This document shows positions 46,887 to 62,717 of a DNA stretch of 64,000 nt, piece by piece. The DNA is from an uncultured Marivita sp. GTDB lineage: Bacteria > Pseudomonadota > Alphaproteobacteria > Rhodobacterales > Rhodobacteraceae. Position 1 is the stretch's first letter, and each line of letters starts with the position of its first letter. The DNA lies in NCBI RefSeq assembly GCF_947488135.1, contig NZ_CANKYW010000001.1:434001-498000 (forward strand), written 5' to 3'. A program made the translations under genes and the position numbers. The notes beneath the pieces were generated by a model. It saw only the letters and a list, made by a program, of their open reading frames with translations, had not been told where the DNA came from and did not search any database.

Positions 46887-46892
46887 GCGGCG

Positions 46893-48494
46893 TTACCAGA
46901 ACCAAATGACGAAACCGGCGGTCGCTGCGATCAGGAACCCTGCCCAAAGGGTCCGGTCCTGCCAGAGGGGTGTTTCCCATTTGGTAAACACTTCAAGCGT
47001 CTCTTTTCCTGACCAGACAAGCTCGTTGATATTCTCCTTGTCCTCGCGCGACGTCATTGCCGAGATGCCGACGTGGATTACGATCCCGAGGCACATCATG
47101 ATGGACGACATGATCGTGTAATGAATTTCCGGCAGACCCAGATTGGCCCAGACTTCGGTAACTTCCTTCATGATGAACAGCGGAATACCGACGACCAGCC
47201 CGAGTACGATTGTCCAGAAGGCTCCGTTGCCGTTCAGCCAAGGAATGAACAGGCCGAGGATATACACCACCACGATGGTCGGGATGATATAGCTCAGCGA
47301 GGACTGGAAATAGCTGAACAGACTCTCGAACCCGGCGATCGACGGGGCATAGATCGCGCCGAACACCATGACGACGCCGGTCACGACACGGCCAAGCCAG
47401 ACCTGGCGTTCTTCGCTCACATCCCAGATGGGCTCGATGAAATCCTTTACGACGAGTGTCGACGCGGAGTTCATGGCACTGTCGAGCGACGACATGATCG
47501 CGGCGATCAGCGCCGCCATGATGAGTCCGCGCAAGCCAATGGGCATCAACTCGAACGCGAGTGTGGGGAAGGCGAGGTCAGGGGTTTCCAGTTCCGGGTA
47601 CAGTTTCAAGGCGATCAGGCCCGGCAGGATCATGAGAAACAGGTTCGGCAGCTTCAGGAAACCGGCAAACAGGGCGCCGATCTGGCCTTCCTTCAAATCC
47701 TTCGCGCCCAACGTTCGCTGCACCACGAACTGGTTGATCGTCCAGTAATAGAACCCGAGCAAAACCACGCCCCAAAGGCCCGTCCACGGCAGGAAATCAT
47801 CATTTGCCGGCAGGATCAGTTTGGTTTTCTCTTCGGGGATGTCGACGAACAGCTCTTGCCAACCACCGATCTCGTTGAGGCCCAGCCAAAACAGGATGGC
47901 GGCAGCGACGATGAGCAGAATGGCCTGTACCGTATCCGTCACGACGACGGCTGAAAGGCCACCGAGAATGGTGTAAATGCCCGCCACAAGCGCAAGAACT
48001 GCCACAGCCGTCCAGAGGTTGAGGTAGCCGGTCACATTCGAAATCACCAGGCCACCGGCATAAAGAGCACCAGCGGTGTCGATAAACAGGATGGCCAGAA
48101 TGGTGAATAAAGAAAACGCGCGGCGCGACCGCACGTCATAGCGCTCTTCGAGGAATTGGGGAACCGTTGAGATTTTCGCTCTGAGAAAAGACGGCAGAAT
48201 AAAAATGGCAAAAAGGATCAATACAAGGGCGGCCGTCCACTCGTAGTTGAAGATAACCACGCCATTTGCATACGCGCCCCCCATGAGCCCGACGAAGCTT
48301 GACCCGGACATATTAGAAGCAAAAAGCGAGAAGCCAATCAAATACCACGGGAGCGATCGTCCGGCGAGGAAGTAGTCTTCGGATCCCCCGCTCGATTTCT
48401 TGGAGACGTACACGCCATGTGCGACGACACCGATAAAATAAACGACGACGATTGCATAATCGATCCAGTGCAGATCAAACTTTGCATCACCCAT
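46893..48494 (-). CDS. Sodium:solute symporter (SSS/SLC5 family)
   Basis: A 533-residue symporter with about 14 TM helices. Features: YFLAGRSLPWYLIGFSLFASNMSGSSFVGL (TM1/TM2 region), the Na2 site area IMSSLDSAMNSASTLVVKDF, and WTINQFVVQRTLGAKD typical of SGLT-like sugar or inositol transporters. It is first in a minus-strand unit symporter, MscS, Gfo/Idh/MocA, SDR. Likely imports a sugar or cyclitol with Na+. Confidence 0.92.
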   Translation of the reverse strand: MGDAKFDLHWIDYAIVVVYFIGVVAHGVYVSKKSSGGSEDYFLAGRSLPWYLIGFSLFASNMSGSSFVGLMGGAYANGVVIFNYEWTAALVLILFAIFILPSFLRAKISTVPQFLEERYDVRSRRAFSLFTILAILFIDTAGALYAGGLVISNVTGYLNLWTAVAVLALVAGIYTILGGLSAVVVTDTVQAILLIVAAAILFWLGLNEIGGWQELFVDIPEEKTKLILPANDDFLPWTGLWGVVLLGFYYWTINQFVVQRTLGAKDLKEGQIGALFAGFLKLPNLFLMILPGLIALKLYPELETPDLAFPTLAFELMPIGLRGLIMAALIAAIMSSLDSAMNSASTLVVKDFIEPIWDVSEERQVWLGRVVTGVVMVFGAIYAPSIAGFESLFSYFQSSLSYIIPTIVVVYILGLFIPWLNGNGAFWTIVLGLVVGIPLFIMKEVTEVWANLGLPEIHYTIMSSIMMCLGIVIHVGISAMTSREDKENINELVWSGKETLEVFTKWETPLWQDRTLWAGFLIAATAGFVIWFW

Positions 48495-48946
48495 GATCTT
48501 GTCCTCTTAGCTCATGAATTTAGGGGATTTAGCGCGCCGGATCGAACCTCTGCGCTGCTCGTGTACCGGAATGGGAAGGGGTGAAAGAGCTTTAGCCCTA
48601 GGATTCCGTTTTCCATCAAACGTCGGGAATGAGTTTGCAAAAACAAACTCGCAAATTTTGGAGATCACGTTGATAAGAAGATAGACGTCATATCTGAAAT
48701 CTCGAAAATGTAGGGTATCCTTCAGGCGGAATTTCTGCTGCACTTCTTCCGATGTATATTTTGAAATGAGATGTCTCATGGAGAGTCCCCCTCATCAAAC
48801 CAGCCGAAAGACCAATCTCCGGCCTCGCAAAGTCTTAACTCCAGCGGGCGGAATGAAGTTTCACGGGAACTTGAAAAAACGTGTCCGGGGAGCAGGGATA
48901 ACGGCTACCGGCCAATAAAACCGTTTCAAAACCGTCCGGGTGCGCC
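48495..48946. other. 452-bp AT-richer gap upstream of symporter
   Basis: The stretch is clearly lower in GC than its neighbours. It contains a hairpin GAGTTTG-CAAAAA-CAAACTC (48631-48650) in the presumed symporter leader and a doubtful 90-codon frame (listed separately). The part from 48780 to 48946 holds no gene and no classic terminator for the exchanger gene that ends at 48947. Confidence 0.5.
48507..48779 (-). CDS. Possible small protein before symporter gene
   Basis: A 90-codon frame starting MRHLISKYTSEEVQQ with GAGGGGGA about 7 nt before the ATG and ending 12 bp before the symporter start. The composition is normal for a basic soluble protein, but no domain, signal or TM is seen and the AT-rich context could be leader DNA. 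It is reported because of its ribosome site and position; it may not be real. Confidence 0.3.
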   Translation of the reverse strand: MRHLISKYTSEEVQQKFRLKDTLHFRDFRYDVYLLINVISKICEFVFANSFPTFDGKRNPRAKALSPLPIPVHEQRRGSIRRAKSPKFMS

Positions 48947-49978
48947 TCAACCGATGCCGGTCTGGACAGCAATTGCTCCTGCGTAAATGAGGAGGATCGC
49001 AAGACTTTCGCGACCAATCCCCCCGGGCCCTTGCCGTTCGCGATAGACCAGCCCAAGCAGCATGACAGCGGTCATGAGAAGTCCGACCGTCAGCCAGAAG
49101 AGGTCGCCGGTTTCGATAGCGTGGTAGATCGAGCCCTCCCGATAGCCGATATCGGACACGGTGAGGAACAGCGTGTCGAACGTATTGCCGCCAATGATGC
49201 CGCCGACGGCCAATTGCAGCGCACCACGACGGATTGCAGCAAGTGTGGTCACAAGCTCCGGCAAGGAGGTAACGACCGCGGTCATCAAGGCGCCAACCAG
49301 GGAAGCTGACACATCAAGCCTGTCCGTCAGTTCGGCGCCGACCCTGCTGACTGTCCAGCCCGCGACACCCATGACCAGCATAAGCCCCAGAAACCGTACG
49401 ATGAGACCCTTGCTGGATTTGTCGGTGTCATCGTCGTTCTCGGGCGTATCTGACCGGGTGTCCCCGGTTTGCACGGGTTGCCACATCGGGGCTTCGCGCA
49501 ACCGCGAGGTGGCGACCACTCCAAAACCGTAGACCAGAACCAGAACGAGCGAGGCCGGGTGCACACCCCAGATCGCAAATTCGGGCAGGGTGTAGGCGGC
49601 CAGCGGGACGCTGAGCAGCAAAAGCAGCAATCCGCATTGAAAGACATTGGCCAATTCAGCCGCGGCATGTTCCAGGTTCGCGCGTCGGTAAAGAATGTCG
49701 GCAATGGCGAGAAACGCGGTTTGCGCGGCAATTCCTCCGATGCCGTTCGAAAATGCCAGTGATGCCCGCCCATCGAGCGCCGCGGTGATCGAAACGATCG
49801 TCCCGGAAAACGACGTCGCCGCGCCAAGCAGCACGCCGCCCACGACCGCTTCTCCCAATCCGGTGCGGTCCGCGATCTGATCTGCAAGGCCGGTCATCCG
49901 CAAGCCTGCAACGAGGATCACCGCCGATGCGGCAGCACCAAATCCTAGCAAGACGGAAAGAGAAAACGTGTCGAACAT
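48947..49978 (-). CDS. CaCA-type sodium/calcium exchanger-like protein
   Basis: A 343-residue membrane protein with about ten TM helices in two inverted halves. The alpha-1 repeat is GEAVVGGVLLGAATSFSGTIVSITAA...NGIGG, and alpha-2 is SLVGALMTAVVTSLPELVTTLAAIRRGALQLAVGGIIGGNTFDTLFL, which keeps the TSLPE and GGN motifs. In alpha-1 the Glu usual in TSxPE is replaced (TSFSG), so ion selectivity may differ. An acidic cytoplasmic loop joins the halves. I start at ATG 49978; ATG 50005 is an alternative. Divergent from the dehydrogenase-oxidase operon. Confidence 0.82.
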   Translation of the reverse strand: MFDTFSLSVLLGFGAAASAVILVAGLRMTGLADQIADRTGLGEAVVGGVLLGAATSFSGTIVSITAALDGRASLAFSNGIGGIAAQTAFLAIADILYRRANLEHAAAELANVFQCGLLLLLLSVPLAAYTLPEFAIWGVHPASLVLVLVYGFGVVATSRLREAPMWQPVQTGDTRSDTPENDDDTDKSSKGLIVRFLGLMLVMGVAGWTVSRVGAELTDRLDVSASLVGALMTAVVTSLPELVTTLAAIRRGALQLAVGGIIGGNTFDTLFLTVSDIGYREGSIYHAIETGDLFWLTVGLLMTAVMLLGLVYRERQGPGGIGRESLAILLIYAGAIAVQTGIG

Positions 49979-50078
49979 GGAACCCGAACGCAGGGACCCG
50001 GACATTTGTTCAAACCGATCTTGGAACCGAAACAGGAGGATCGCGTTTTTCCGATGCAAACTACTCGGAGCACAGAAG

Positions 50079-50768
50079 ATGTCGCAGCTATTTTCGCGCC
50101 GTGCCGTGCTGATGCAAATTGGGAGTGCGGTCATCGCAGGCGCGTCCTCGGTTCCGCGTCACGCATTCGCCGATCTTGACAGCCAACCATGGTTTTTTCT
50201 GACCGATGACGAAGCCAGATGGCTTGCCGCAATCGTTGATGTTTTCATTCCACAAGACGAATTTCCAAGCGCCAGTCAGGCTGGCGTTGTCGATTTCATA
50301 GATTTCCAGATGGCCACCGGATACGGGCAGGGCGAAGGGCTTTATCTCAAGGGACCGTTCCCGGAAGGCACACCCCAGCAAGGGTACCAGTTGCCTATGA
50401 CGCCGGCTGAAATGATGCGGGCCGGACTGACCGAGTTGCGCGGCGAAACCGATCTGACCGCGATGCCGACTGCCGATCGTGCCGCTTGGGTGGACGATCT
50501 GTCCAATCGTGACAACATGCTGGGCGACGTGCCCTCATCGACATTTTTCGAAGAACTTCTGAGTTTGACCAACGAAGGGTATTTCGCTGATCCGATCTAT
50601 CGCGGCAATGCCGATTACGCTGGCTGGCGCATGGTCGGCTTTCCGGGGGCACATGCATATTACACCGAACGGGTCGGCGACAACAAACCCACCAATCAGC
50701 CGCCTATGGGCATTGCGCATGGTCAGTTGAATCAGGTGTCGCCCCGCAAAATCGAACAGGGAGGGTAG
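50079..50768 (+). CDS. Gluconate 2-dehydrogenase subunit 3 family protein, Tat signal
   Basis: A 229-residue small subunit of a GMC-type membrane dehydrogenase. The Tat signal (SRRAVLMQIGSAVIAGASS, to about 31) is followed by the family motif WFFLTDDEARWLAAIVDVFIPQDEFPSASQAGVVDFID, and GWRMVGFPGAHAYY near the end. Such subunits carry their signal-less flavoprotein partner through the Tat pore and stabilise it. CGGAG lies 9 nt before the ATG. First gene of the operon; the GMC gene starts 3 nt after it. Confidence 0.92.
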   Translation: MSQLFSRRAVLMQIGSAVIAGASSVPRHAFADLDSQPWFFLTDDEARWLAAIVDVFIPQDEFPSASQAGVVDFIDFQMATGYGQGEGLYLKGPFPEGTPQQGYQLPMTPAEMMRAGLTELRGETDLTAMPTADRAAWVDDLSNRDNMLGDVPSSTFFEELLSLTNEGYFADPIYRGNADYAGWRMVGFPGAHAYYTERVGDNKPTNQPPMGIAHGQLNQVSPRKIEQGG

Positions 50769-50771
50769 GTC

Positions 50772-52556
50772 ATGTCGCAACGGACGCTACCGAAAACCGA
50801 TGTCGTCATTGTTGGCGGCGGCTGGACCGGGCTCACTGCAGCCTATGAGTTGGCCAATGCCGGGCAACGGTGCGTCGTCCTGGAGCGCGGACGGCATCGG
50901 CACACCGCGACATCCTTCGCCGGACCCGAGGAACATGACGAGCTGAAATACGCCCTGCGTTACACGCATATGCAGGATGTCAAGAAAGAGACACTGACCT
51001 TTCGCAACAACCGCGACCAGCAGGCACTGCCGATGCGCCGCCTTGGATCGTTCCTGCCGGGCAGCGGGTTGGGCGGCGCAGGCATTCACTGGAATGGCCA
51101 GATCTGGCGGCCCTTGCCTAGCGATCTTGAAATGCGGTCTCACTACGAAGACCGCTACGGCAGCCAATTCATTTCCGATGATTTGACGATTCAAGACTGG
51201 GGAGTGACCTACGACGAACTTGAGCCGCATCTTGATTTCTTCGAACGTATTTGCGGAGCGGCGGGATATGCCGGAAACCTGAATGGCGAGACCCGCGCCG
51301 GAGGCAATCCATTTGAAGGGTCGCGCACGGCCGACTATCCCAACCCCGCAATGAAACAGCCGATTTCCAACACGCTCTTCGGCAAGGCTGCGGAAAAGCT
51401 GGGGTACAACCCGTTTCCCATGCCATCGGCGAACGTCACACAAGCCTACGAAAACCCGTATGGCGCGCAGCTTCATCCCTGCACTTATTGCGGATTTTGC
51501 GAGCGGTTCGGCTGTGGTTACTACGCCAAGGCTGATCCCATCATCTGCGTTTACGACCGCATCAAGGATCACGAAAACTTCGAAATCCGCTTTGAGGCGC
51601 AGGTGCTGCAGGTCGAGAAATCCGCCGATGGGAAAACCGCGACAGGTGTCACATATCTCGATGAAAACGGTGTCGAGGTGTTTCAGCCTGCCGATACGGT
51701 CTGCCTGAATGCCTACGCGCTCTGGAATGTGCACCTGATGCTCGTCTCCGGCCTTGGCACGCCCTACGACCCCGAAACCCGCACCGGCACGGTGGGGCGC
51801 AACTACTCCTATCAAACCATTGCGGCGGTGGATGCGTTCTTCGATGACAGCATCACCACCAATCCTTTCATGGGGGCAGGGGCGCTTGGTGTGGTGGTTG
51901 ACGACTTCAACGGCGACAATTTCGACCATTCCGAACTGGGCTTTCTTGGCGGTGGCTACATCGCCTGCAAGCAGTATCACGGTCGTCCGATCAGCTATCA
52001 GCCGGTGCCCGAAGGGACGCCACGCTGGGGGGCAGAGTGGAAACGTGCGGTGCGTGAGAATTATAACCGCCACGCCGATCTCGTGATCCACGGCTCATCG
52101 GTGTCGACCCATGAAAACTATCTCGATCTGGACCCGACATGGACCGACGCCTACGGACGCCCGCTTCTGCGGATGACATTCAACTTCCCCGACAATGACC
52201 GCAAGATGAGCGATTACGTCATGAACCGCGCGGTCGAGATCGCGCGCGAGATGGACAACGTGACCTCGGTCAAATCCGTCAATCTGGCCGCGGAAGGCAA
52301 TGATTATTCCGTGGTGCCTTACCAGACGACGCACAATGTCGGCGGCGCGGTGATCGGGACTGATCCGGCCACGTCCGTCGTGAACCGCTACGGCCAGATG
52401 TGGGACCACCACAATGTGTTCGTCTTCGGTGCGTGTCTGTTTCCCCAAAACCTTGGCTACAATCCAACCGGGCCGCTGATGGGTCTGGCCTATTGGACGC
52501 TCGACCACATGAAGAACGATTACCTGTCGAACCCCCGCCCCTTGATGGACGCTTGA
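50772..52556 (+). CDS. GMC-family FAD dehydrogenase, large subunit
   Basis: A 594-residue flavoprotein of the gluconate/sorbitol/alcohol dehydrogenase branch. The FAD fold is TDVVIVGGGWTGLTAAYELANAG. GSGLGGAGIHWNGQIWRP matches the second GMC region. A Cys-rich segment, HPCTYCGFCERFGCGYYAKA (from about 236), resembles the extra Cys motif of cytochrome-linked GMC enzymes. The C-terminal catalytic region is NVGGAVIGTDP...NLGYNPTGPLMGLAYW. No signal peptide, so export depends on the preceding Tat subunit. Electrons should pass to the cytochromes encoded next. Substrate (polyol, aldose or aldonate) not determined. Confidence 0.92.
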   Translation: MSQRTLPKTDVVIVGGGWTGLTAAYELANAGQRCVVLERGRHRHTATSFAGPEEHDELKYALRYTHMQDVKKETLTFRNNRDQQALPMRRLGSFLPGSGLGGAGIHWNGQIWRPLPSDLEMRSHYEDRYGSQFISDDLTIQDWGVTYDELEPHLDFFERICGAAGYAGNLNGETRAGGNPFEGSRTADYPNPAMKQPISNTLFGKAAEKLGYNPFPMPSANVTQAYENPYGAQLHPCTYCGFCERFGCGYYAKADPIICVYDRIKDHENFEIRFEAQVLQVEKSADGKTATGVTYLDENGVEVFQPADTVCLNAYALWNVHLMLVSGLGTPYDPETRTGTVGRNYSYQTIAAVDAFFDDSITTNPFMGAGALGVVVDDFNGDNFDHSELGFLGGGYIACKQYHGRPISYQPVPEGTPRWGAEWKRAVRENYNRHADLVIHGSSVSTHENYLDLDPTWTDAYGRPLLRMTFNFPDNDRKMSDYVMNRAVEIAREMDNVTSVKSVNLAAEGNDYSVVPYQTTHNVGGAVIGTDPATSVVNRYGQMWDHHNVFVFGACLFPQNLGYNPTGPLMGLAYWTLDHMKNDYLSNPRPLMDA

Positions 52557-52567
52557 AGGAGGACCCG

Positions 52568-53392
52568 ATGACACAGCGCAGATTTGCAAAAACCACAGGG
52601 ATTGCCGCGACCCTGGGCGCCATCATCGCGGTCCCGTTCATGGGGTGGGCGCAAAACCAGGAAACGCAGCCCGCAATAGCCGCGTTGGAGGCAAACCTGA
52701 CCGATGAACGCGCGTTGTTCAACGCAACCGTGGACGCGACGGTCGATGATGACCTGCTCGAACTTGGCCAATTGGTCGCCATGGGAGGCGCCGAAAACGG
52801 TGGTTCGGGCATGGCGTGCATCACTTGTCACGGTGCCAATGGTACAGGGGACGGGTCCGGGGCGTTCCCGCGTCTTGCCGGTCAGGCGGGATGGTACACG
52901 TACAAGCAATTGGTCGACTACGCGTCCGGCGCGCGACCCAATCAGGTGATGTCCGGCATCGCGCAGCGGCTGACCGAGCGCGAGATGGAAGCCGTCGCCG
53001 CCTATTACGCCGCCATTGATGCGCCTTATCGCCCGATACCGGGTGAAGCCGATGTGTCCCTGCTGCAATGGGGCGGACAGCTGGGTGCGGTCGGGTCGGC
53101 CGAAAAGGGCATTCCGGCTTGTGTGAACTGTCACGGTCCGTCCGGTATGGGAAATCCCCCGTCGGTTCCGTATCTCGCCGGGCAATACGCCAATTACATG
53201 ACCTATCAACTTCAGCTTTGGCGCGAGGGGGGCCGAGACAATGACGCAATGAACGTCATGTCCGCGATCGCCTCTAAGATGACCGACGAAGACATGCGCG
53301 CCGTGTCGGAATATTACGCCCGCGTGAGGCCCGTCGTCGATGTGGTCGAAACGGTCCCGGCGAGCATCGACACGCCTGAAATCACGGAGTGA
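52568..53392 (+). CDS. Diheme cytochrome c
   Basis: A 274-residue periplasmic cytochrome with a signal peptide (to about 29, GWAQ). Heme sites are CITCH (Cys84-His88) and CVNCH (Cys185-His189), each with a Met ligand candidate downstream (NQVMSGIA; NVMSAIA). A strong GAAGGAGG site precedes the ATG. It likely takes electrons from the GMC dehydrogenase and hands them to the next cytochrome or to oxidase subunit II. Confidence 0.94.
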   Translation: MTQRRFAKTTGIAATLGAIIAVPFMGWAQNQETQPAIAALEANLTDERALFNATVDATVDDDLLELGQLVAMGGAENGGSGMACITCHGANGTGDGSGAFPRLAGQAGWYTYKQLVDYASGARPNQVMSGIAQRLTEREMEAVAAYYAAIDAPYRPIPGEADVSLLQWGGQLGAVGSAEKGIPACVNCHGPSGMGNPPSVPYLAGQYANYMTYQLQLWREGGRDNDAMNVMSAIASKMTDEDMRAVSEYYARVRPVVDVVETVPASIDTPEITE

Positions 53393-53895
53393 TGTCCGTG
53401 ACGAAGCTGGGTTCATACACCACGGTCGCACTCGTCGGCACCGCTTGTCTTGGCGCGATGGTTTGGTCTGCCGTCAAACCCGGTGACGGGCTTGGATCGC
53501 AGACGGTTGTCATGACGCAAGACGCGATCCGTGCGACCGCCGACTGGTTCCGAAGGGGACCAGCAGACGGAAAACCCGATTGGGAGGCGGCCTCCTACGA
53601 TATGTACGATGCAGACCCCGATCGCGGGGCGGCTCTGATGCTCGAGCATGGATGCGGGTCCTGCCACGCAATTCCCGGCGTGGTCGGCGCCCGTGGATCG
53701 GTCGGGCCGAGCCTGGAGGGCTTCCGCGACCGCGCCTATGTGGCGGGGGTCTTGCCCAACCAACCCGGCGGGCTCGTGCGCTGGCTCGTAAACCCGCCCA
53801 TGCATTCGCCGCAGACCGCGATGCCGGACCTTGGCGTGACCGAAGACGAGGCGCGCGACATGGCTTCCTATCTCTACACGTTGCGAGGCGGATGA
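53392..53895 (+). CDS. Membrane-anchored monoheme cytochrome c
   Basis: A 167-residue protein with an uncleaved-looking N-terminal TM (about 9-28), a 50-residue spacer, and one heme site CGSCH (Cys88, Cys91, His92). SVGPSLEGFRDRAYVAG and the Met in PQTAMPDLGVTEDEA match cytochrome c domains often seen in oxidase operons. The start ATG overlaps the previous stop by one base (TGATG). The next gene overlaps its stop by 4 nt. Confidence 0.92.
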   Translation: MSVTKLGSYTTVALVGTACLGAMVWSAVKPGDGLGSQTVVMTQDAIRATADWFRRGPADGKPDWEAASYDMYDADPDRGAALMLEHGCGSCHAIPGVVGARGSVGPSLEGFRDRAYVAGVLPNQPGGLVRWLVNPPMHSPQTAMPDLGVTEDEARDMASYLYTLRGG

Positions 53896-54839
53896 TGGAG
53901 CCGACGTCCGACAGCTCGACCCTCGACATCTACGGGTCTCAATCGACGCTGCGACCCTCCGGTCTGGGCGCAGAATTGACCTATGACCTGACCTTGGCCA
54001 TGACCATCGGTTTCGGCGTCGTTTTCGTTTTTGTCATGCTGCTCTTGTGGGTGGCGTGGCGCCGTCAGACACCTGCCGGACATTGGTGGGTCTGGTCTGG
54101 CGGCATCCTGCTTCCCGTTGCGGCCATCGTGGTTCTGATGACCGCCTCCACCGCCATCCTTGTCGCCAGCACGCGCAGCGACGACGAGGCTTTGGTCATC
54201 GACGTGACCGGGTATCAGTTTTGGTGGGATGTCGTATATGACCCGGATGGGATCGCCCTTCGCGACGCGAACGAGCTTGTTTTGCCGGCGGGCCGGCCAG
54301 TGACCCTCCGCCTGAAATCGGATGATGTGATCCACTCGTTCTGGGTGCCGTCGATCTCGGGGAAGATGGACATGATCCCCGGTCGCATCAATACGCTGAC
54401 CGTTCGTCCCGAAGAGCCAGGCCGGTATCGCGGCCAGTGTGCAGAATTCTGCGGCCTCAGCCATCCGCGCATGGCCTTCGAAGTGGTGGTTCTGGAACTC
54501 GATGCGTTCGATGAATGGTTGCTGACCACGCAAGGAGAGGCCCGCGACGCGGCACAGCCCGAGCTTCTGGCCGGCAAGCAGGTGTTCATCGACGCGGGCT
54601 GTTCCGCCTGCCATGAAATTCGCGGCGTCGCCGAAGGTGGCCGTCTCGGACCGGACCTGACCCGCGTCGGAGCGCGCGCCAGCCTCGGCGCCGGTATGTG
54701 GCGTATGAACCAAGGCAATCTCGCCGGATGGATCGCCGATGTGGGCGACATGAAACCGGGGGCGCAAATGCCGTCCTACAACCACCTGAGCGGGCCGGAA
54801 CTGCGCGCCGTATCCGCCTATCTGGCGAGCCTGAGATGA
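53892..54839 (+). CDS. coxB: Cytochrome c oxidase subunit II with fused cytochrome c domain
   Basis: A 315-residue caa3-type subunit II. Two TM helices (about 35-57 and 70-93) precede the cupredoxin domain with the CuA ligands His148, Cys183, Glu185, Cys187, His191 and Met194 (CAEFCGLSHPRM). A C-terminal cytochrome c domain has CSACH (Cys237, Cys240, His241) and a Met in GAQMPSYNHL. It is the entry point for electrons into the oxidase. ATGA overlaps join it to the cytochrome before and subunit I after. Confidence 0.95.
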   Translation: MMEPTSDSSTLDIYGSQSTLRPSGLGAELTYDLTLAMTIGFGVVFVFVMLLLWVAWRRQTPAGHWWVWSGGILLPVAAIVVLMTASTAILVASTRSDDEALVIDVTGYQFWWDVVYDPDGIALRDANELVLPAGRPVTLRLKSDDVIHSFWVPSISGKMDMIPGRINTLTVRPEEPGRYRGQCAEFCGLSHPRMAFEVVVLELDAFDEWLLTTQGEARDAAQPELLAGKQVFIDAGCSACHEIRGVAEGGRLGPDLTRVGARASLGAGMWRMNQGNLAGWIADVGDMKPGAQMPSYNHLSGPELRAVSAYLASLR

Positions 54840-57385
54840 CCGACGCCCCCTATGATAACAATCCGGTTCCCGGACCGCGTGACGATGCGTATGACATGGC
54901 GCCGAAAGGAGAGCCGGACAAAAGCTTCGAAGAGGTCTGGGCAACGCCACCCGGCGTCAAGGTGCTGTCCTCGGTCAGCCACCGTGTTGTCGGCAAACGT
55001 TTCCTGATCACCGGCTTCATCTTCTTCCTGATCGCCGGTGTTCTTGCGCTGTTGGTTCGGTTGCAGCTTTTGGTGTCGGAAAACACGTTCCTCGACAGCG
55101 AGACCTACAACCAGGTCTTCACGATGCACGGAACGATCATGATGTTCCTCTTCGCGATTCCGATGCTGGAAGGGTTCGCGGTCTACCTGATCCCGCTGAT
55201 GATCGGCGCGCGCGATCTGGTCTTCCCGCGTCTGGGCGCGTTCGGGTACTACTGTTACCTCTTTGGCGGCATCATTGTCTTGTCCTCGTTTCTTTTCGAC
55301 GCAGCCCCTGCGGGCGGCTGGTTCATGTACGTGCCGCTGTCGACCAGCCAATACACCGAAGGGCTGTCCGCGGATTTCTGGCTGATCGGCATCACCTTGG
55401 CCGAAATCGCCAGCGTCACCGCAGCGGTTGAGATCATCGCGGCCATCCTGTGTTCCCGCGCGCCGGGGATGAGCCTGACGAAAATGCCGATCCTCATGTG
55501 GTATCTGCTCGTCACCGCCTTCATGATCGCCATCGGCTTTCCGCCCCTCATCATCGGGTCGATCCTGCTTGAGGCCGAACGCCTGCTGGGACTGCCATTC
55601 TTCGACATTTCGCTGGGCGGAGACCCTTTGCTGTGGCAGCACCTATTCTGGCTCTTCGGCCACCCGGAGGTCTACATCATCTTCCTGCCCGCTGCCGGCA
55701 TGGTGGCGACCATGTTGCCGGTCTTCGTGGGAAAGCCGCTCTTCGGGTACGGATTCGCCGTCTCGGCAGTCATCACGATGGGCTTTCTGAGCTTCGGCCT
55801 CTGGGCGCACCATATGTTCGCGACCGGCTTGCCGATCATGTCGTTGTCGCTCTTCTCGGCCGCATCGACGATGGTGGCGGTGCCGACGGGGGTGCAGATC
55901 TTCTGTTTCATCGCCACGCTCACCCTGGGTAAACCGCGCCTCACCGTGCCGATGCTTTTCATCCTGGGATTTTTGTTCATCTTCGTTCTGGGTGGGCTGA
56001 CCGGTGTGATGCTGGCGGCGGTGCCGTTCAACCTTCAGGCACATGACAGCTACTTCGTCGTGGCACACCTGCACTACGTCCTGATCGGGGGCTTCGTCTT
56101 TCCGATGTTCGGCGCGCTCTATTACTGGGTGCCGCATTTCACCGGGCGCATGATGTCCGAGACGCTGGGGAAATGGGCCTTCTGGCTGATGTTCCTCGGC
56201 TTTAACCTTGCGTTCTTCATGATGCATCTGACGGGATTGCGCGGGATGCCCCGGCGCATCGCCACGTACCCCGAAGGCATCGGCTGGGACCGGCTCAACA
56301 TGCTGTCCACCGTGGGCGCTTTCATTCTGGCCGCCGGGATCGCGGTGTTCATCGTCGATTTCTTCCGTCATCAGCGCAGCGGACCCAAAACCGGGCGTGA
56401 TCCTTGGCGCGCGGCGACGTTGGAATGGCTCTACGAGCCCCGCACGCCGGGTTACAATTTCCGGGCGATCCCAGCGATCCGGTCGCGCGAACCGCTCTGG
56501 GATCAGCCGGAATTGACTGACCGGCCCGCCGCAGAGGTGGACGGCGCGCTCCGCATCAGCCACGACCATCGACGTGAGACGATTGGCTGCGATCCCGTGA
56601 CGGGTGAGCCGATACAGATCCTGCGTCTGCCGCACCCGACCTGGTTCCCGCTGATCTCCGCTTTGGGGCTGGCCGTTCTTTTCGCCGCGACATTGGCATC
56701 GCTATACTGGCTGTCAGCCATTGGCGGTCTGATCGCGCTGATCGGGTTGACTGGCTGGATTTGGGAGCCGTCCGACAGCGGCGTCACCCGCGAGACCGGG
56801 CTTGGCGAGGGGCTGTCCCTGCCGGTGAACGTGGTCGATCGCAAAAGTCACCTGCATGTGGGCACGATCGGCACCATTCTGATCCTCTACGCCCTTTTCG
56901 CATCGTTGCTCTTCGCCGGGCTGTTTCTGTGGAACGTCCAGCCCGAATTCGCCCAAGACACCGCACGGCCCGCGCGCATCTTCGCGCTCGTCTCTGCCGC
57001 TCTGTCGGTCATTCTCTTCGCGTTGAGCTGGATGACCGGACGCCGCGCGCTGTCGCAGGGATCGCTCGCGGCGGGAATGTTGATCAACCTTTTGACCGGC
57101 GTCGCCATCGTCGCCCTTGGTCTGTCGTTCTTCTGGGCGTTGCTGCCGGTCGATCCCTACAGCACCGCCTTCGCCGCCGTCGGCTGGGCGATGGGGGCTT
57201 ATGTGGCGGCGCTTCTGGCGGTGTCGCTCTATTGGACGCTGTTCAACGCGCTGCGCAAGGCAACGGGCAATGTCGTGCTGGGTCAGGGCCTTCCGGATCT
57301 GCTGCTGGCCGCGTTCGGCAAGGCAACTGCCGTCATGGCAGGTATCACAGCCGTCGCGTTCCTGGTCGCGGGGACACCGCAATGA
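54836..57385 (+). CDS. ctaD: Cytochrome c oxidase subunit I+III fusion
   Basis: An 849-residue heme-copper oxidase subunit. The subunit I part (about 40-560) keeps heme a ligands His98 and His413, heme a3 ligand His411, CuB ligands His276, His325 and His326, the Tyr280 cross-link (GHPEVY) and Glu278 of the D-channel. Differences from canonical A-type enzymes are Gln354 for the K-channel Lys (VPTGVQIF), Ala291 for the K-channel Ser, and Val116 and Gly134 for the two D-channel Asn residues, while Asp127 is kept. The C-terminal third is a subunit III-like TM bundle, including KSHLHVGTIGTILILYALFAS. A K-channel alternative would have to exist for proton uptake. Confidence 0.93.
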   Translation: MTDAPYDNNPVPGPRDDAYDMAPKGEPDKSFEEVWATPPGVKVLSSVSHRVVGKRFLITGFIFFLIAGVLALLVRLQLLVSENTFLDSETYNQVFTMHGTIMMFLFAIPMLEGFAVYLIPLMIGARDLVFPRLGAFGYYCYLFGGIIVLSSFLFDAAPAGGWFMYVPLSTSQYTEGLSADFWLIGITLAEIASVTAAVEIIAAILCSRAPGMSLTKMPILMWYLLVTAFMIAIGFPPLIIGSILLEAERLLGLPFFDISLGGDPLLWQHLFWLFGHPEVYIIFLPAAGMVATMLPVFVGKPLFGYGFAVSAVITMGFLSFGLWAHHMFATGLPIMSLSLFSAASTMVAVPTGVQIFCFIATLTLGKPRLTVPMLFILGFLFIFVLGGLTGVMLAAVPFNLQAHDSYFVVAHLHYVLIGGFVFPMFGALYYWVPHFTGRMMSETLGKWAFWLMFLGFNLAFFMMHLTGLRGMPRRIATYPEGIGWDRLNMLSTVGAFILAAGIAVFIVDFFRHQRSGPKTGRDPWRAATLEWLYEPRTPGYNFRAIPAIRSREPLWDQPELTDRPAAEVDGALRISHDHRRETIGCDPVTGEPIQILRLPHPTWFPLISALGLAVLFAATLASLYWLSAIGGLIALIGLTGWIWEPSDSGVTRETGLGEGLSLPVNVVDRKSHLHVGTIGTILILYALFASLLFAGLFLWNVQPEFAQDTARPARIFALVSAALSVILFALSWMTGRRALSQGSLAAGMLINLLTGVAIVALGLSFFWALLPVDPYSTAFAAVGWAMGAYVAALLAVSLYWTLFNALRKATGNVVLGQGLPDLLLAAFGKATAVMAGITAVAFLVAGTPQ

Positions 57386-57711
57386 CCCGACTGGTGTTTC
57401 ATATCGCGGGTCCAATCACGCTCTGGTCGCTGCACTTCATCGCCATCTACGCGCTGATCTCGGCGGCTTGCGCGCCGCGAGGATTGATGGATGTCGATGT
57501 CATGCGCGGTGTCGCGACGATCAGTACTCTGCTGATCGGGATAGCCATGCTTGCCTGGCTGGTGCTGGCGCTGCGCCGGTCGCGCCGCATCCCGGACGAC
57601 GCCGAAGAACGCCCGCTGGCGATCGCAGCGCTTTGGTCGGTGGGCATTTCGTTGATGGCCATCCTGGCAAACCTCTGGCCGGTGGCGACGCTTGCCACGT
57701 GTTCCGGCTGA
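57382..57711 (+). CDS. Small membrane protein in oxidase operon
   Basis: A 109-residue protein with three predicted TM helices (about 12-32, 46-64 and 82-106). It has no recognised motif apart from two Cys residues (30 and 107). ATGA overlap with subunit I+III and a position before the assembly factor argue for a subunit IV-like or assembly role; this is inference. Confidence 0.75.
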   Translation: MTRLVFHIAGPITLWSLHFIAIYALISAACAPRGLMDVDVMRGVATISTLLIGIAMLAWLVLALRRSRRIPDDAEERPLAIAALWSVGISLMAILANLWPVATLATCSG

Positions 57712-57728
57712 TCAACAAGGAGGCTCTC

Positions 57729-58445
57729 ATGGACCCCTACACACCCTTCTGCGGCACCCCTCCGCTTCCGACCGAGCTTCTGACCCGCTGGACGTTCGAT
57801 CCGGTATTGATCGCGGGCTTGATAGCCGCATTCGCAATCGGCATGAGGTACACAATAGAAAGAAAGCGCTTTACGGGGGCTTGGGCCCTTGTCGCCTTTC
57901 TGTTCATCTCGCCGCTCTGCGCGGCGTCTATGGCGCTGTTTTCCGCCCGCGTCGCCCAGCATATCCTTCTGACACTCGTGGCGGCCCCTTTGCTGGCCGC
58001 AGCCTTGCCGAAACTGCGGTTGCCGCCGATGCCCGTTGCCGTGGTGTTCGCCGTGCTGTTCTGGTTCTGGCACGCGCCCGCACCCTATCAGGCCACGCTG
58101 GAAAGCGATCTGACATACTGGGCGATGCATTTGAGCCTGTTCGGCAGCGCGACGCTTATGTTCGCCGCCTTCCGCGCGACGCCTGAGCAGTCGATTCCTG
58201 CCGCTGCATTGACCGGAGCACAGCTGACCCTGTTCGCTGTCGTACTGACCCTGGCACCAACGCCCTGGCACAGTTGGCATATGTTGACGACCATTCCCTA
58301 TGAGCTCGGACCGTTGGCGGATCAACAATTGGCGGGGGCCATGATGTGGGTGGCGGGGGGCCTCCTCTTCCTCGCCGTCATCGGCAAGCTGGCGTTGACG
58401 TTTCTTCAGGAGGCTGACGTTCCGCCAGCCAAGAGCAGGCCATGA
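57729..58445 (+). CDS. Cytochrome c oxidase assembly factor, CtaG (caa3) family
   Basis: A 238-residue membrane protein with seven TM segments. Features are FISPLCAASMALFSARVAQHILLTLVAAPLL, WFWHAPAPYQATL and WHMLTTIPYELGPLADQQLAGAMMWVAGGL, matching the Bacillus-type CtaG/DUF1404 family used in caa3 assembly (not the Cox11-type CtaG). AAGGAGG precedes the ATG. It overlaps the AI-2E gene by 4 nt. Confidence 0.9.
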   Translation: MDPYTPFCGTPPLPTELLTRWTFDPVLIAGLIAAFAIGMRYTIERKRFTGAWALVAFLFISPLCAASMALFSARVAQHILLTLVAAPLLAAALPKLRLPPMPVAVVFAVLFWFWHAPAPYQATLESDLTYWAMHLSLFGSATLMFAAFRATPEQSIPAAALTGAQLTLFAVVLTLAPTPWHSWHMLTTIPYELGPLADQQLAGAMMWVAGGLLFLAVIGKLALTFLQEADVPPAKSRP

Positions 58446-59578
58446 CCGCCACACCATCGGGTCCCGCCGAACGAAACGCATCCCCGGGCTCGGAAAGGGC
58501 CGTGTTTCGCAGAGCGCAGGTCTGGATCCTGGGTGGGTTGTTCGTGATCGCGCTGGCCGCCGCCTTGAGAGCGATGGCGCCAGTTGCGATTCCGGTCGTC
58601 TTTGCCGTGCTCATCACATTGGTCATCGCGCCTTTGCATCAAAGACTGGTGCGCGTATTGCCACCGGCACTGCGCTGGTTTGCGCATCTTGGCGCGATCC
58701 TCGTTCTTCTTACAGTGATTGCTGTATTTCTTGCGGCGTTGGTCTTCGCTGCCGAACGCGTTTTGCAGGAAATGTCGTCTTTCGACGGTAATATGGAGAC
58801 GCTGCTGCCCTCCGAGTCCGAAGCAACGGCCCTCGTGGGCGGGCAACTCAAGGATTTGGTCGGCACCATCAGCAGCGCGCTCAGTGGATGGCTGGTTGAG
58901 CAGATCACCACCGTCGCACGTGCCATCGCCGGTATGACGGGGATGTTCATCACGACCCTCGTGCTTGTCTTCTTTCTAATTCTCCTCGCTTTGACGGAGC
59001 GCGGAATATGGCGGGGGAAAATTGCGGCGCTTTGGCCGGAACAGGGGCAAACGGAATGGAGGGACGCACTGGTCACGATAACGCTCAGATTGCGGAAATT
59101 TCTGATAATCCGGACCGCAGTCGGCTTTCTGCAAGCGGCTCTCTACGTCCTGTGGCTTTGGCTGTTCGGCGTCGACATGCTGGTCGTTTGGGGTGTTTTG
59201 ACCTTCATTCTGACGTACATTCCCAACCTAGGGTCCGTCATCGCAGGAACGCTGCCGGTTCTCTATGCGCTGGTCACCAAGGATTTGGCGACGGCGTTCG
59301 CTGTCGCGGCTGGATTGCTGGTCATCGAGCAAGTGGTCGGCAATTTCATCGACCCCAAGCTGCTGGGCAAATACATCGTTCTGTCGCCCTTCATCATTCT
59401 GGTGTCACTGCTTTTCTGGGGATGGCTGTGGGGGATCGCTGGCGCGTTCCTCGCCACACCCATCTTGCTCAGCCTTCTTATCGCGCTCAATCACATTCCG
59501 CCCCTGCGTCCGGTGGCTTTGATCCTGAGTGACCAGCGCACATCCGAAGATCTCGACCGCGCGCTGAATCAGAAATAG
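58442..59578 (+). CDS. AI-2E family (PerM-like) membrane transporter
   Basis: A 378-residue membrane protein with about eight TM helices. Family features are the paired N-terminal TMs with PLHQRLVR between, a periplasmic helical domain, and the C-terminal LTYIPNLGSVIAGTLPVLYAL, VIEQVVGNFIDPKLLGKYIVLSPFIILVSLLFWGWLWG signature. Members include Na+(Li+)/H+ antiporters and quorum-signal exporters; the substrate here is unknown. Its ATGA overlap with the CtaG gene makes it the last gene of the oxidase operon. Confidence 0.9.
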   Translation: MTATPSGPAERNASPGSERAVFRRAQVWILGGLFVIALAAALRAMAPVAIPVVFAVLITLVIAPLHQRLVRVLPPALRWFAHLGAILVLLTVIAVFLAALVFAAERVLQEMSSFDGNMETLLPSESEATALVGGQLKDLVGTISSALSGWLVEQITTVARAIAGMTGMFITTLVLVFFLILLALTERGIWRGKIAALWPEQGQTEWRDALVTITLRLRKFLIIRTAVGFLQAALYVLWLWLFGVDMLVVWGVLTFILTYIPNLGSVIAGTLPVLYALVTKDLATAFAVAAGLLVIEQVVGNFIDPKLLGKYIVLSPFIILVSLLFWGWLWGIAGAFLATPILLSLLIALNHIPPLRPVALILSDQRTSEDLDRALNQK

Positions 59579-59893: not shown

Positions 59894-60026
59894 GTCTGTT
59901 GCCTTTCCTTTTGACGAAGTGACTACCAGACAAACCGACGCTCGAGATGGCTGGTTCCGGTGAAACGATGGGAACTGCGCCTGTACCACGGGCGTTCCGT
60001 TTATATTGATGAGCGGAGTCTGCACG

Positions 60027-61646
60027 ATGGTCACAACCCTTCCCCAAACCCCTGATCTTGTCGTTGTCGGAGCAGGCGTCGCCGGAGGGCTCGTTGCGAA
60101 GCAGGCGGCCGAAGCCGGGCTTCGTGTAACGATCCTGTGCGACGGACCCACGCTTGATCGCGCCGATCTGGTGGACCGCTTCAGGCAGGCCGATCCCCAA
60201 AGCCTGATGTCGCCCTACCCGGTCGTGCCGCACGCGCCCCAGCCACAGGTCAACCGTACGGGTGATTACCTGATCCAGAAAGGCCCCGACCCCTATGATC
60301 AGCAATATATCCGCGCCGTCGGTGGCACGACCTGGCACTGGGGCGCCGCGACATGGCGCTACATTCCCAACGACATGAAGCTGAGGACGCTTTACGGCGT
60401 CGGGCGCGACTGGCCCATCGACTATGACGAGATCGAACCCTGGTATTACGAGGCCGAGGTCGAGCTGGGCGTCGCCGGCCCCGAAAACGCGCCTTTTGAT
60501 GCGCCCCGGTCAAAACCCTATCCCATGCCGGAGGCCCCGTTTTCCTATCTCGACCAAGTCTTTCACGACAAGCTGACTGCCCTTGGCTATGATGTGATCC
60601 ACGCCCCGCAATGCCGCAACAACCAGCAGGTCTATGATGGGCGGCCACCCTGTTGCGGCAACGCGAACTGTATGCCGATCTGTCCCATCGGCGCGCAGTA
60701 TTCCGGCAATATGTCCGTTGAAAAGGCGCAGGCCGCCGGGGCCGAGCTGATCACCAACGCGGTTGCGCATCATCTTGAAGTTGGCCCCGACAAACGGATC
60801 ACCGCCGTGCGCTATCTCAAACCGGACGGGTCTGAATTTCGCCTAAAGGCGCAGACCTTTGCATTGGCCGCGAACGGGATCGAAGGCCCCAAGATCATGC
60901 TGATGTCGAAACAGGAACACGCGCCCGACGGCGTGGGCAATAGCTCGGACATGGTGGGGCGCAACCTCATGGACCATCCCGGGACAATGTCCAAGTTCGA
61001 CAGCAAGGACCCGCTTTGGCCGGGCCGGGGCCCGAATATCCTGTCGGGTATCGTAAACCTGCGCGATGGCCCGTGGCGTGAAAGAATGGCCGCGCGCAAG
61101 CTGATGCCCGACAACAAGACCCATGTGCACGAAGTCACGGTCGAAGCGATCGAAGAGGGTTTGACAGGCGCCGAATTACGCGAGGCGATCCGCCACCGTG
61201 CCGCGCGGCGTCAGATCGTGTTCAGCTTCAACGAACAACTGCCCGACCCGTCGAACCGGATTGTACCGTCGTCCGAAGGTCTGACCGACGCGCTGGGCCT
61301 TCCGCGTCCTGAAATCCACTACAGGATCGACGATTACGTCCATCGCGCCGCCGAAGACACCCGCCGCCGCGTCGAAGAGATGGCCGTGGCGTTCGGTGCC
61401 ACGCGCGACAGCGTCTGGCATAATGACGGCTACTTGCCGAACAACCACATCACAGGAGCGACGATCATGGGCGACAACCCGAATGACAGCGTCGTGAACC
61501 GCGACTGCCGGACGCATGACCATCCGAACCTCTGGATCGCGTCGTCTTCGACCTTTCCATCCGTTTCCAGTGTCAACGTGACTCTGACCATCGCCGCCCT
61601 TGCGATCCGCATGGGCGAAGCCATCGCGGCGGAGGCACGGCCATGA
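60027..61646 (+). CDS. FAD-dependent glucose dehydrogenase-like alpha subunit (GMC family)
   Basis: A 539-residue GMC flavoprotein. The FAD fold is PDLVVVGAGVAGGLVAKQAAEAG. Cys209, Cys210, Cys215 and Cys219 (PPCCGNANCMPICP) match the 3Fe-4S motif of bacterial FAD-glucose dehydrogenases, whose alpha subunit is about the same length. The catalytic His and Asn region is NNHITGATIMG and SSTFPSVSSVNVTLT. No signal peptide; the Tat subunit two genes on would carry it. GGAG lies 8 nt before the ATG at 60027. Probably oxidises an aldose or polyol and reduces the coupled diheme cytochrome. Confidence 0.92.
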   Translation: MVTTLPQTPDLVVVGAGVAGGLVAKQAAEAGLRVTILCDGPTLDRADLVDRFRQADPQSLMSPYPVVPHAPQPQVNRTGDYLIQKGPDPYDQQYIRAVGGTTWHWGAATWRYIPNDMKLRTLYGVGRDWPIDYDEIEPWYYEAEVELGVAGPENAPFDAPRSKPYPMPEAPFSYLDQVFHDKLTALGYDVIHAPQCRNNQQVYDGRPPCCGNANCMPICPIGAQYSGNMSVEKAQAAGAELITNAVAHHLEVGPDKRITAVRYLKPDGSEFRLKAQTFALAANGIEGPKIMLMSKQEHAPDGVGNSSDMVGRNLMDHPGTMSKFDSKDPLWPGRGPNILSGIVNLRDGPWRERMAARKLMPDNKTHVHEVTVEAIEEGLTGAELREAIRHRAARRQIVFSFNEQLPDPSNRIVPSSEGLTDALGLPRPEIHYRIDDYVHRAAEDTRRRVEEMAVAFGATRDSVWHNDGYLPNNHITGATIMGDNPNDSVVNRDCRTHDHPNLWIASSSTFPSVSSVNVTLTIAALAIRMGEAIAAEARP

Positions 61647-62308
61647 CACGTTTTCTCCTCGCCGCAAGTGCCTGCGTCAGCGTGATGGTCGCGCAAGGTG
61701 CCACAGGACAGGGCGCGGATGTCCTGTTGAATTGCTCGACATGCCATACCGTCGGGTCCGGCTCTTCTATGGATGCCGCAACGCAGCGTGTGCCGTCACC
61801 CTATCCCAACCTCAACGGCCAGCCGGTACGCTATCTCGAGCGACAACTTGAGGCCTATCGGACGGGCTTGCGCCAGCATCCGCAGATGCAAGCGACAGCG
61901 ACTGCGTTGGGTGACGGAAGCGCAGCCATGGCGCGCATGTATGCCGATGCCGCGCCACCCAAGCTTGCGTTGCAAGGCGATGTCAGCGCCTATCTGGAGG
62001 CGCAGAAACTGATTGCCGAAGGCGACTGGTCGCGGAGTCTGCCCTCGTGCGCCAGCTGCCATGGGATCAATGAAGAGGACCGCGCGCGCCTCGCTCCGCG
62101 TCTTCATGGCCATCCGGAGGGGTACCTTGCCCGCCAACTCCGCGCATATGCCGACGGAACGCGGCAATCGGATACGATGGGCCGGATGCGCAGCTTCGCA
62201 TCGAGGCTGACAGACGCGGAAATCGCGGCTCTGGCCGCCTACTATGCCGCTTGGCGTGTGGAAGGCGCAGGCAGCACCGATGAAAACGAGGACCAGCCTG
62301 ATGGATAA
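61643..62308 (+). CDS. Diheme cytochrome c of the glucose dehydrogenase-like set
   Basis: A 221-residue periplasmic protein with a signal peptide (to about 23) and two heme sites, CSTCH (Cys31-His35) and CASCH (Cys136-His140). Typical FAD-glucose dehydrogenase beta subunits have three hemes; this one is diheme and shorter, more like the cytochromes at 33558 and 52568. It overlaps the alpha subunit by 4 nt and the next gene by 8 nt. Confidence 0.93.
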   Translation: MTRFLLAASACVSVMVAQGATGQGADVLLNCSTCHTVGSGSSMDAATQRVPSPYPNLNGQPVRYLERQLEAYRTGLRQHPQMQATATALGDGSAAMARMYADAAPPKLALQGDVSAYLEAQKLIAEGDWSRSLPSCASCHGINEEDRARLAPRLHGHPEGYLARQLRAYADGTRQSDTMGRMRSFASRLTDAEIAALAAYYAAWRVEGAGSTDENEDQPDG

Positions 62309-62717
62309 TTCGACGATCTTCTCGCGCCGAAGCTTCCTGGGGGGCGTGTCCGCTGCGGCGCTCTTGCCCGGGCTGGCCAAAGCGCAAACTCCGCTCACCT
62401 TTGAAAGCTTCGCTGCCCGTGCGCGCGCTCTTTCTGGTTTTGACGCGATCCCTCGCGCACTTCTGAGCGGCGCGCGCTCGGCTTTGGCGGATACGGAAAT
62501 AGACGCTTTTGTTTCGGAAGATGGCTCGTCCGACAACGCGGACAAAACCGTTTTGAAAGCCCTCTACACAGGTATGCATGCGCCTGCGGAGGGCACACCA
62601 GAGCGGTTCGCTTACGCGCAAGCGCTCATGTACGCGACGATCGAAGACGCGGTGAATGTGCCCAGCTATTGCGGGGGGCTGCCGGGCTATTGGTCCGAGA
62701 AACCCGACAACGTCTGA
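62301..62717 (+). CDS. Tat hitchhiker (gamma) subunit of the glucose dehydrogenase-like set
   Basis: A 138-residue protein with a Tat signal (SRRSFLGGVSAAALLPGLA) followed by a small helical domain and the C-terminal YATIEDAVNVPSYCGGLPGYWSEKPDNV, matching gamma subunits of FAD-glucose and sugar dehydrogenases. It should bind the alpha subunit in the cytoplasm and carry it across. The order here is alpha, cytochrome, gamma, whereas gamma-alpha-beta is usual. Confidence 0.9.
   Translation: MDNSTIFSRRSFLGGVSAAALLPGLAKAQTPLTFESFAARARALSGFDAIPRALLSGARSALADTEIDAFVSEDGSSDNADKTVLKALYTGMHAPAEGTPERFAYAQALMYATIEDAVNVPSYCGGLPGYWSEKPDNV

Follow-up and report, generated by a model that had tools for sequence, protein, structure and literature searches.

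A conserved alphaproteobacterial operon for a GMC dehydrogenase, two cytochromes c and a caa3-type oxidase, with a candidate path to oxygen

Introduction

FAD dehydrogenases of the GMC type, together with operons that place electron donors beside a terminal oxidase, are the closest described counterparts of the locus reported here. In the glucose dehydrogenase of B. cepacia, a Tat hitchhiker subunit is described as escorting the flavoprotein, with a proposed electron path from FAD to a 3Fe-4S cluster and on to a heme c 7-8 Å away, according to the excerpts of two reports (PMC9727119, PMC6719666). A GMC oxidoreductase of Collimonas pratensis, made up of a small subunit bearing a Tat signal, a large subunit and a cytochrome subunit, is described in one excerpt as converting glucose to gluconic acid (PMC12542777). 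On the oxidase side, excerpts describe the rus operon of Acidithiobacillus ferrooxidans (cyc2-cyc1-hyp-coxBACD-rus), whose products are thought to form a supercomplex (PMC2621215), and the COX operons of type a, with fused COX1-3, and type a-II, with PQQ dehydrogenase genes (Degli Esposti 2014, PMC4013037).

No description of an operon joining GMC and PF13618 proteins to a caa3 oxidase was found in the open-licence literature searched. Nor is such a block described in the available portions of PMC10715153, PMC5398030, PMC5492768, PMC4013037, PMC4148975, PMC4373377, PMC12542777, PMC2621215, PMC9915066, PMC9727119, PMC6719666 and PMC11540253.

Organization of the operon

The window, a stretch of 64,000 nucleotides from an uncultured Marivita sp., carries nine plus-strand genes at 50079-59578, listed below with the upstream gap and a second dehydrogenase cluster.

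49979..50078, + strand: intergenic gap of about 100 nt between the operon and a divergent Na/Ca exchanger gene (inferred exchanger start, 49978)
50079..50768, + strand: PF13618 small subunit (Gluconate_2-dh3; Pfam 88.7 bits), RR motif at residue 7
50772..52556, + strand: GMC flavoprotein dehydrogenase (Pfam), 594 aa, Cys at 237/240/243/248
52568..53392, + strand: diheme c4-like cytochrome c, 274 aa, two CxxCH and two Cytochrom_C stretches
53392..53895, + strand: monoheme cytochrome c, 167 aa, one CxxCH, N-terminal hydrophobic segment 10-28
53892..54839, + strand: oxidase subunit II (COX2 and Cytochrom_C), CuA-type motif, C-terminal heme c
54836..57385, + strand: fused oxidase subunit I+III, 849 aa (COX1 492 bits), GHPEVY at 275-280, Gln 354
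57382..57711, + strand: small membrane protein, 109 aa, 3 hydrophobic segments
57729..58445, + strand: CtaG-type oxidase assembly factor (Caa3_CtaG 82.8 bits)
58442..59578, + strand: AI-2E family transporter-like protein (Pfam 132.7 bits), 4-nt overlap with CtaG
60018-61646, + strand: GMC protein of the second dehydrogenase cluster
61643-62308, + strand: diheme cytochrome c of the second cluster
62301-62717, + strand: PF12318 small subunit of the second cluster, with RR motif

The initial annotation had described nine genes separated by overlaps or by gaps of at most 17 nt, and the junctions indeed range from -4 to +17 nt; the domain identities it gave were borne out by Pfam, with the fused CtaD ending in a subunit III fold. 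Its view of all nine genes as a single unit holds for the first eight, which form a conserved block (see below); the AI-2E gene is accessory, with a match in 2 of the 12 block members (window included), and was rejected as part of the conserved unit. The gap at 49979..50078 is the probable promoter region; a scan returned no consensus promoter (0 promoter-like elements vs 2.9 expected) and 12 terminator-like elements vs 9.4 expected.

Upstream, genes for MscS-like, SSF symporter and Na/Ca exchanger proteins occupy the other strand at 45762-50062, and several members, L059, L061 and L064 among them, likewise have matches to two or three of these genes upstream of the block. The second FAD dehydrogenase cluster (60018-62717), of the sorbitol-dehydrogenase type, begins 439 nt downstream of the operon; parts of it were matched near the block in G065 (L048), with weaker matches in G154 (L047). 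Elsewhere the genome encodes an aa3 CtaD, a cbb3 CcoN, a bc1-type cytochrome b and one more COX1-family protein with weak CcoN similarity. Since bc1, aa3 and cbb3 are all present, any route from the dehydrogenase to caa3 would be at most an extra branch.

The dehydrogenase half

The operon small subunit is the sole PF13618 match in the genome. Judged wholly by its RR motif and its position beside the flavoprotein gene, it is probably a Tat hitchhiker subunit; no solved small subunit was related to it by sequence (best E 0.21), and any link to gluconate would derive solely from the PF13618 name. The flavoprotein has the GMC scaffold, and its four Cys, H521 and N564 are invariant in all 30 aligned rows. 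We infer that H521 and N564 form the GMC His/Asn pair found in complexes of the BcGDH/FDH kind, and the four invariant Cys may mark an Fe-S cluster. The predicted GMC model (pLDDT 85.7) has fructose dehydrogenase and B. cepacia glucose dehydrogenase as its best Foldseek matches; its Cys loop is of low confidence (pLDDT <50 at 239-251, except residue 248), and an HMMER alignment puts the four Cys in the Cys region of fructose dehydrogenase.

Complexes of that kind have an electron-transfer subunit with three hemes c. The operon has a diheme protein, with no predicted membrane segment, and a separate monoheme protein; the Shinella HZN7 cluster encodes a single protein with three Cytochrom_C stretches. 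The operon dehydrogenase may thus be said to resemble these FAD dehydrogenase complexes in how it would work, and no claim is made that it belongs to their family.

The oxidase half and its proton channels

Several features mark the oxidase as a caa3 enzyme of the A1 type. Subunit II combines a CuA motif (CAEFCGLSHPRM) with a fused heme c (CxxCH at 237), and subunit III is fused to subunit I, with a subunit III fold at 590-846. The fused protein scores 699 bits against the CtaD_CoxA profile (cut-off 671), and it has both the GHPEVY motif, whose Glu we take to be a mark of A1-type oxidases, and the metal-ligand His, with His 276, 325, 326, 411 and 413 invariant in 10 of 10 rows. In the predicted model of the 849-aa protein, overall pLDDT is 56.3 and only the subunit III part was used; no solved relative of that part was found by sequence (best E 1.4).

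The K-channel lysine and D-channel asparagines of the A1 type are replaced by Gln 354, Gly 134 and Val 116. Residue 354 (window 55895-55897) stands at the place of the K-channel Lys in aa3 enzymes, and Gln occupies it in 53 of 63 aligned CoxI rows, namely 52 fused proteins and the unfused outlier L175. These 52 are all the fused CtaD rows readable at 354, across types A, B and C (L045 being a copy of L054). The other rows have Lys in seven cases (aa3 or A2-like) and Ser in one (L176), and two end earlier. L176 also reads AHPWVY in place of GHPEVY. All five PDB alignments shown, of 41 matches, have Lys at the K-channel place, Thermus caa3 among them. Among the 53 Gln-bearing rows, the two D-channel asparagines, presumably equivalent to R. 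sphaeroides N139 and N121, have given way to other residues in 52 and 53 respectively, and the channel Asp is kept in 51, with Glu in two. Both CtaD proteins of G212 have Gln at the K-channel place, and G047 has four fused-type CtaD matches at four places in one genome (L046, L161, L170, L171). Because the channel changes are common to the whole fused group, they mark a subgroup and leave the caa3 assignment intact. In Rhodobacter, replacing the K-channel lysine cripples the enzyme; this oxidase group, with Gln throughout, is a natural case in which to ask whether the enzyme can do without that lysine.

Conservation of the block

Gene order was compared by homology, which replaced neighbour clustering of longest ORFs, spoilt by shadow ORFs. 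Among the matches listed, the eight-gene block was found in all 12 non-redundant loci, the window among them, whose GMC protein shares 70% identity or more with that of the window. The small subunit, GMC, diheme cytochrome c, CoxII, CoxI, small membrane protein (phmmer, weakest match 24.4 bits) and CtaG occur in every member, and the monoheme cytochrome c in 11, being absent in G065. Members cover two orders: Dinoroseobacter shibae belongs to the Rhodobacterales, and Hoeflea halophila and Roseitalea to the Hyphomicrobiales. In D. shibae, the block lies on plasmid pDSHI02, the same contig as G035. The initial annotation had called for the gene order to be sought in other Rhodobacterales genomes; its recurrence in 12 loci over two orders, among the matches listed, led us to reject the idea that the order is unique to this strain. 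Between Sulfitobacter maritimus (L059) and H. halophila (L061), GMC is 94% and CoxI 90% identical, with collinear genes on both sides, which suggests that the block was transferred between orders.

Ten of the 198 genomes of the family set had GMC at E 1e-60 or better. In the five at 75% identity or more (window included), CoxI is 67-100% identical, nearby and on the same strand; in the five at 49-53%, the fetched stretches, one of which ends 1.3 kb past GMC, contained no CoxI match. The class set (385 genomes) gave GMC at E 1e-130 or better in 15, CoxI at E 1e-150 or better in 25 and both in seven; the two are linked in the window genome and G212, where GMC is at least 70% identical, and unlinked in the other five.

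The genome_contigs scan covered the best 80 of a larger number of loci. All six with GMC at least 74% identical (L059-L064) are linked to CoxI, and come from Sulfitobacter maritimus, a Puniceibacterium MAG, Hoeflea halophila, a Maritimibacter MAG, a Marivita MAG and Roseitalea. In L065 (GMC 58% identical), the contig ends before the oxidase genes. For the remaining 73 of these best 80 loci (L066-L138), at about 50-56% GMC identity and many of them short, fused-type CoxI was absent from the fetched DNA in 69 and present in four (L067, L068, L088, L116); five showed another or a weakly matching CoxI (L087, L091, L110, L114, L132). A rough Poisson estimate, assuming one cassette per 4.5-Mb genome and 20 kb seen, gives 0.32 linked loci expected and P 0.0004 for at least four. 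In the reverse direction, 31 of the 32 family loci with another fused-type CoxI had no match to the window GMC, and one had a weak match (L175, 73 bits).

Repeated pairing with other caa3 lineages

GMC proteins related to that of the window also occur beside other caa3 oxidases. Seven Sulfitobacter plasmid records carry a GMC about 78% identical, and gene context was taken from one, S. pontiacus W028: GMC (79%), then cytochrome c, DedA and APC genes, then a caa3 cassette. Its CoxI, 46% identical to that of the window, belongs to a different caa3 lineage (type B), and its GMC nests within the window clade of the GMC tree (8 rows at 98, starred; 12 rows at 100, starred). In S. pontiacus, two transporter-type genes stand between GMC and the oxidase, and the monoheme cytochrome c was not seen. 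A further pairing occurs in Rhizobiaceae (L116, L139-L141), namely Rhizobium Q54, Shinella HZN7, Shinella PSBB067 and Pseudorhizobium endolithicum. Here the CoxI belongs to a third lineage (type C) and is preceded, at about 3 kb, by genes for a GMC (about 52%), its small subunit and a long cytochrome c. Plasmid annotation covered 8 of 117 GMC records (PSBB067 came without annotation) and 4 of 352 CoxI records. On a Burkholderiales MAG contig (L088), a type C-like CoxI is followed by CtaG on the other strand and directly thereafter by a small subunit, GMC and long cytochrome c, perhaps a further GMC-oxidase pairing.

On the CoxI tree, three changes are needed to explain the label 'GMC-linked', borne by 16 of 53 rows, and the starred branches force at least three; none of 500 label shuffles was as low as three. 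These changes of pairing could include losses. Both trees were of a quick kind with SH-aLRT only. The GMC tree consists of 57 hand-chosen rows. The CoxI tree, with a long-branch warning for L001 and L175, omits a copy (L045, of L054), two partial sequences (L068 and L177), L042-L044, G212 and other oxidase types (L087, L091, L132, L176), and it labels L067 and L088 'other', GMC within some kb (in L088, in an adjoining cluster) notwithstanding.

Other partners were also seen: a type B/C cassette lies beside a PQQ dehydrogenase in Sulfitobacter OXR-159 and beside a sorbosone-type dehydrogenase in Aminobacter. Some type B/C cassettes in the annotated plasmid records examined had no recognised partner dehydrogenase beside them. 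Against a small reference set, the 32 family loci with another CoxI gave two PQQ dehydrogenase-like matches and one weak GMC match. Plasmids of Thermus thermophilus and Halorussus limi (L056, L057) carry a PF13618-type and GMC pair (GMC 56% and 50% identical) with no adjacent caa3. In a broader and less likely reading, a compact, transferable alphaproteobacterial caa3 cassette, its proton channels changed from the textbook pattern (Gln for the K-channel Lys, D-channel Asn lost), would have been paired repeatedly with GMC/PF13618, PQQ and sorbosone-type dehydrogenases to give private quinone-independent chains; these would serve as electron sinks, their proton pumping altered or absent.

Proposed electron path and alternative explanations

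Our main reading, to which we assign a probability of about 0.68, is that the block is a conserved unit in which a periplasmic PF13618/GMC dehydrogenase passes electrons through the diheme and monoheme cytochromes c to a dedicated caa3 oxidase and O2. The small subunit, through its Tat-type RR motif, would escort the flavoprotein to the periplasm, where GMC would oxidise its substrate; a sugar, a polyol or another alcohol is probable. From FAD, electrons would pass through the putative Fe-S cluster to the diheme cytochrome c, then to the membrane-anchored monoheme cytochrome c and on to the heme c and CuA of caa3 subunit II, and the dedicated oxidase, served by CtaG and probably by the small membrane protein, would reduce O2. 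Step by step, this direct path is plausible from the gene products. A stable supercomplex, or zero electron flow to quinone, lies outside the proposal.

Gene content, order, conservation and repeated pairing are read directly from the genomes, and the last two support a working dehydrogenase-to-caa3 link as the probable function. The initial annotation had proposed a dedicated link between dehydrogenase and oxidase, in the form of a supercomplex that would bypass quinone and complex III, and had named as evidence against it an order confined to this strain with the halves separate in all relatives. That does not hold, because the order recurs in 12 loci and GMC/PF13618 is paired with three caa3 lineages. 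A dedicated link is supported since the block is kept in 12 of 12 members and the pairing recurs with distinct caa3 lineages; against it, the two halves also occur apart in many genomes, bc1, aa3 and cbb3 are encoded as well, the monoheme cytochrome c is missing in G065 and was not seen in S. pontiacus, and the Cys loop of the GMC model is of low confidence.

One alternative, possible and compatible with the dedicated path, is that caa3 takes electrons from several periplasmic dehydrogenases, the operon GMC being the main one and neighbouring flavin modules with their own cytochromes feeding it too. The second FAD dehydrogenase cluster 439 nt downstream fits this, as do the matches to its GMC, cytochrome c and small subunit close to the block of G065. 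In D. shibae, CtaG is immediately followed by a flavin amine oxidase-type gene and one for a cytochrome c, and L059 and L061 have similar genes near the block but on the opposite strand. Other caa3 cassettes adjoin PQQ or sorbosone-type dehydrogenases. However, the second modules vary, with none recognised near L060 and L062-L064 by a limited reference set, and neighbours can be incidental.

It is less likely that the cytochromes of the dehydrogenase feed a common cytochrome c pool for aa3 and cbb3, with caa3 also fed by bc1 and the genes kept together by co-regulation or joint transfer. Indeed, joint transfer on plasmids could hold genes together without a private path, bc1, aa3 and cbb3 are all encoded in the genome, many fused-type caa3 cassettes have no recognised GMC, and the monoheme cytochrome c is dispensable in one block member. 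Yet a shared pool accords poorly with the recurrence of GMC/PF13618 beside three caa3 lineages and with the fact that 11 of 12 members encode two donor-type cytochromes between the dehydrogenase and the oxidase.

Improbable is a route in which the complex reduces ubiquinone and the oxidase is fed via bc1, as with membrane-bound fructose dehydrogenase, which uses quinone: that enzyme is the closest solved relative and bc1 is present in the genome, but the operon has diheme and monoheme proteins instead of a triheme membrane subunit, and these cytochromes adjoin a CoxII that itself carries a heme c and a CuA motif.

If the dedicated dehydrogenase-to-caa3 link is true, D. shibae DFL12, a marine laboratory strain with the block on pDSHI02, would allow one to ask directly whether an oxidase can belong to a single dehydrogenase; gene deletions in this strain have been published, as an excerpt indicates (PMC5398030). 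More broadly, the pairing of GMC with separate oxidase lineages amounts to a natural experiment on dehydrogenase-oxidase wiring.

Comparison with known systems

The FAD dehydrogenases of B. cepacia (6a2u) and Gluconobacter (8jej, 7w2j) share with the operon a GMC fold, a small subunit with an RR motif, a Cys-rich region at the aligned place and a heme c partner. In contrast, identity between the GMC proteins is about 20%, and the Cys spacing is CxxCxxCxxxxC in the operon and CCx4Cx3C in the known enzymes. The operon small subunit is of the PF13618 type, unlike those of the known complexes, and the PF12318 type is found in the neighbouring cluster. The triheme subunit of the known FAD complexes has given place to diheme and monoheme proteins, with an oxidase in the same operon. 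The Collimonas GMC oxidoreductase, likened to the operon by its description, has no linked oxidase mentioned in the excerpt (PMC12542777).

The caa3 oxidase of Thermus thermophilus (2yev) also has a fused subunit I+III and was the first Foldseek match of our low-pLDDT model, over 826 columns; it keeps the K-channel Lys (PTGVK), where the window CtaD has Gln. As described in the excerpts, the rus operon likewise combines cytochromes of the donor side with an aa3-type oxidase, and differs in its Fe(II) donor, its outer-membrane cytochrome and the absence of a flavoprotein. The fused subunit I+III of the window matches the COX1-3 fusion of type a COX operons, and dehydrogenase genes within an oxidase cluster are also a feature of type a-II; for a-II the excerpts name PQQ dehydrogenases and a COX1-COX4 fusion, and no GMC/PF13618 pair (PMC4013037). 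The operon is a real, conserved respiratory unit, carried on plasmids too, of a kind already known from the rus and PQQ-dehydrogenase COX operons.
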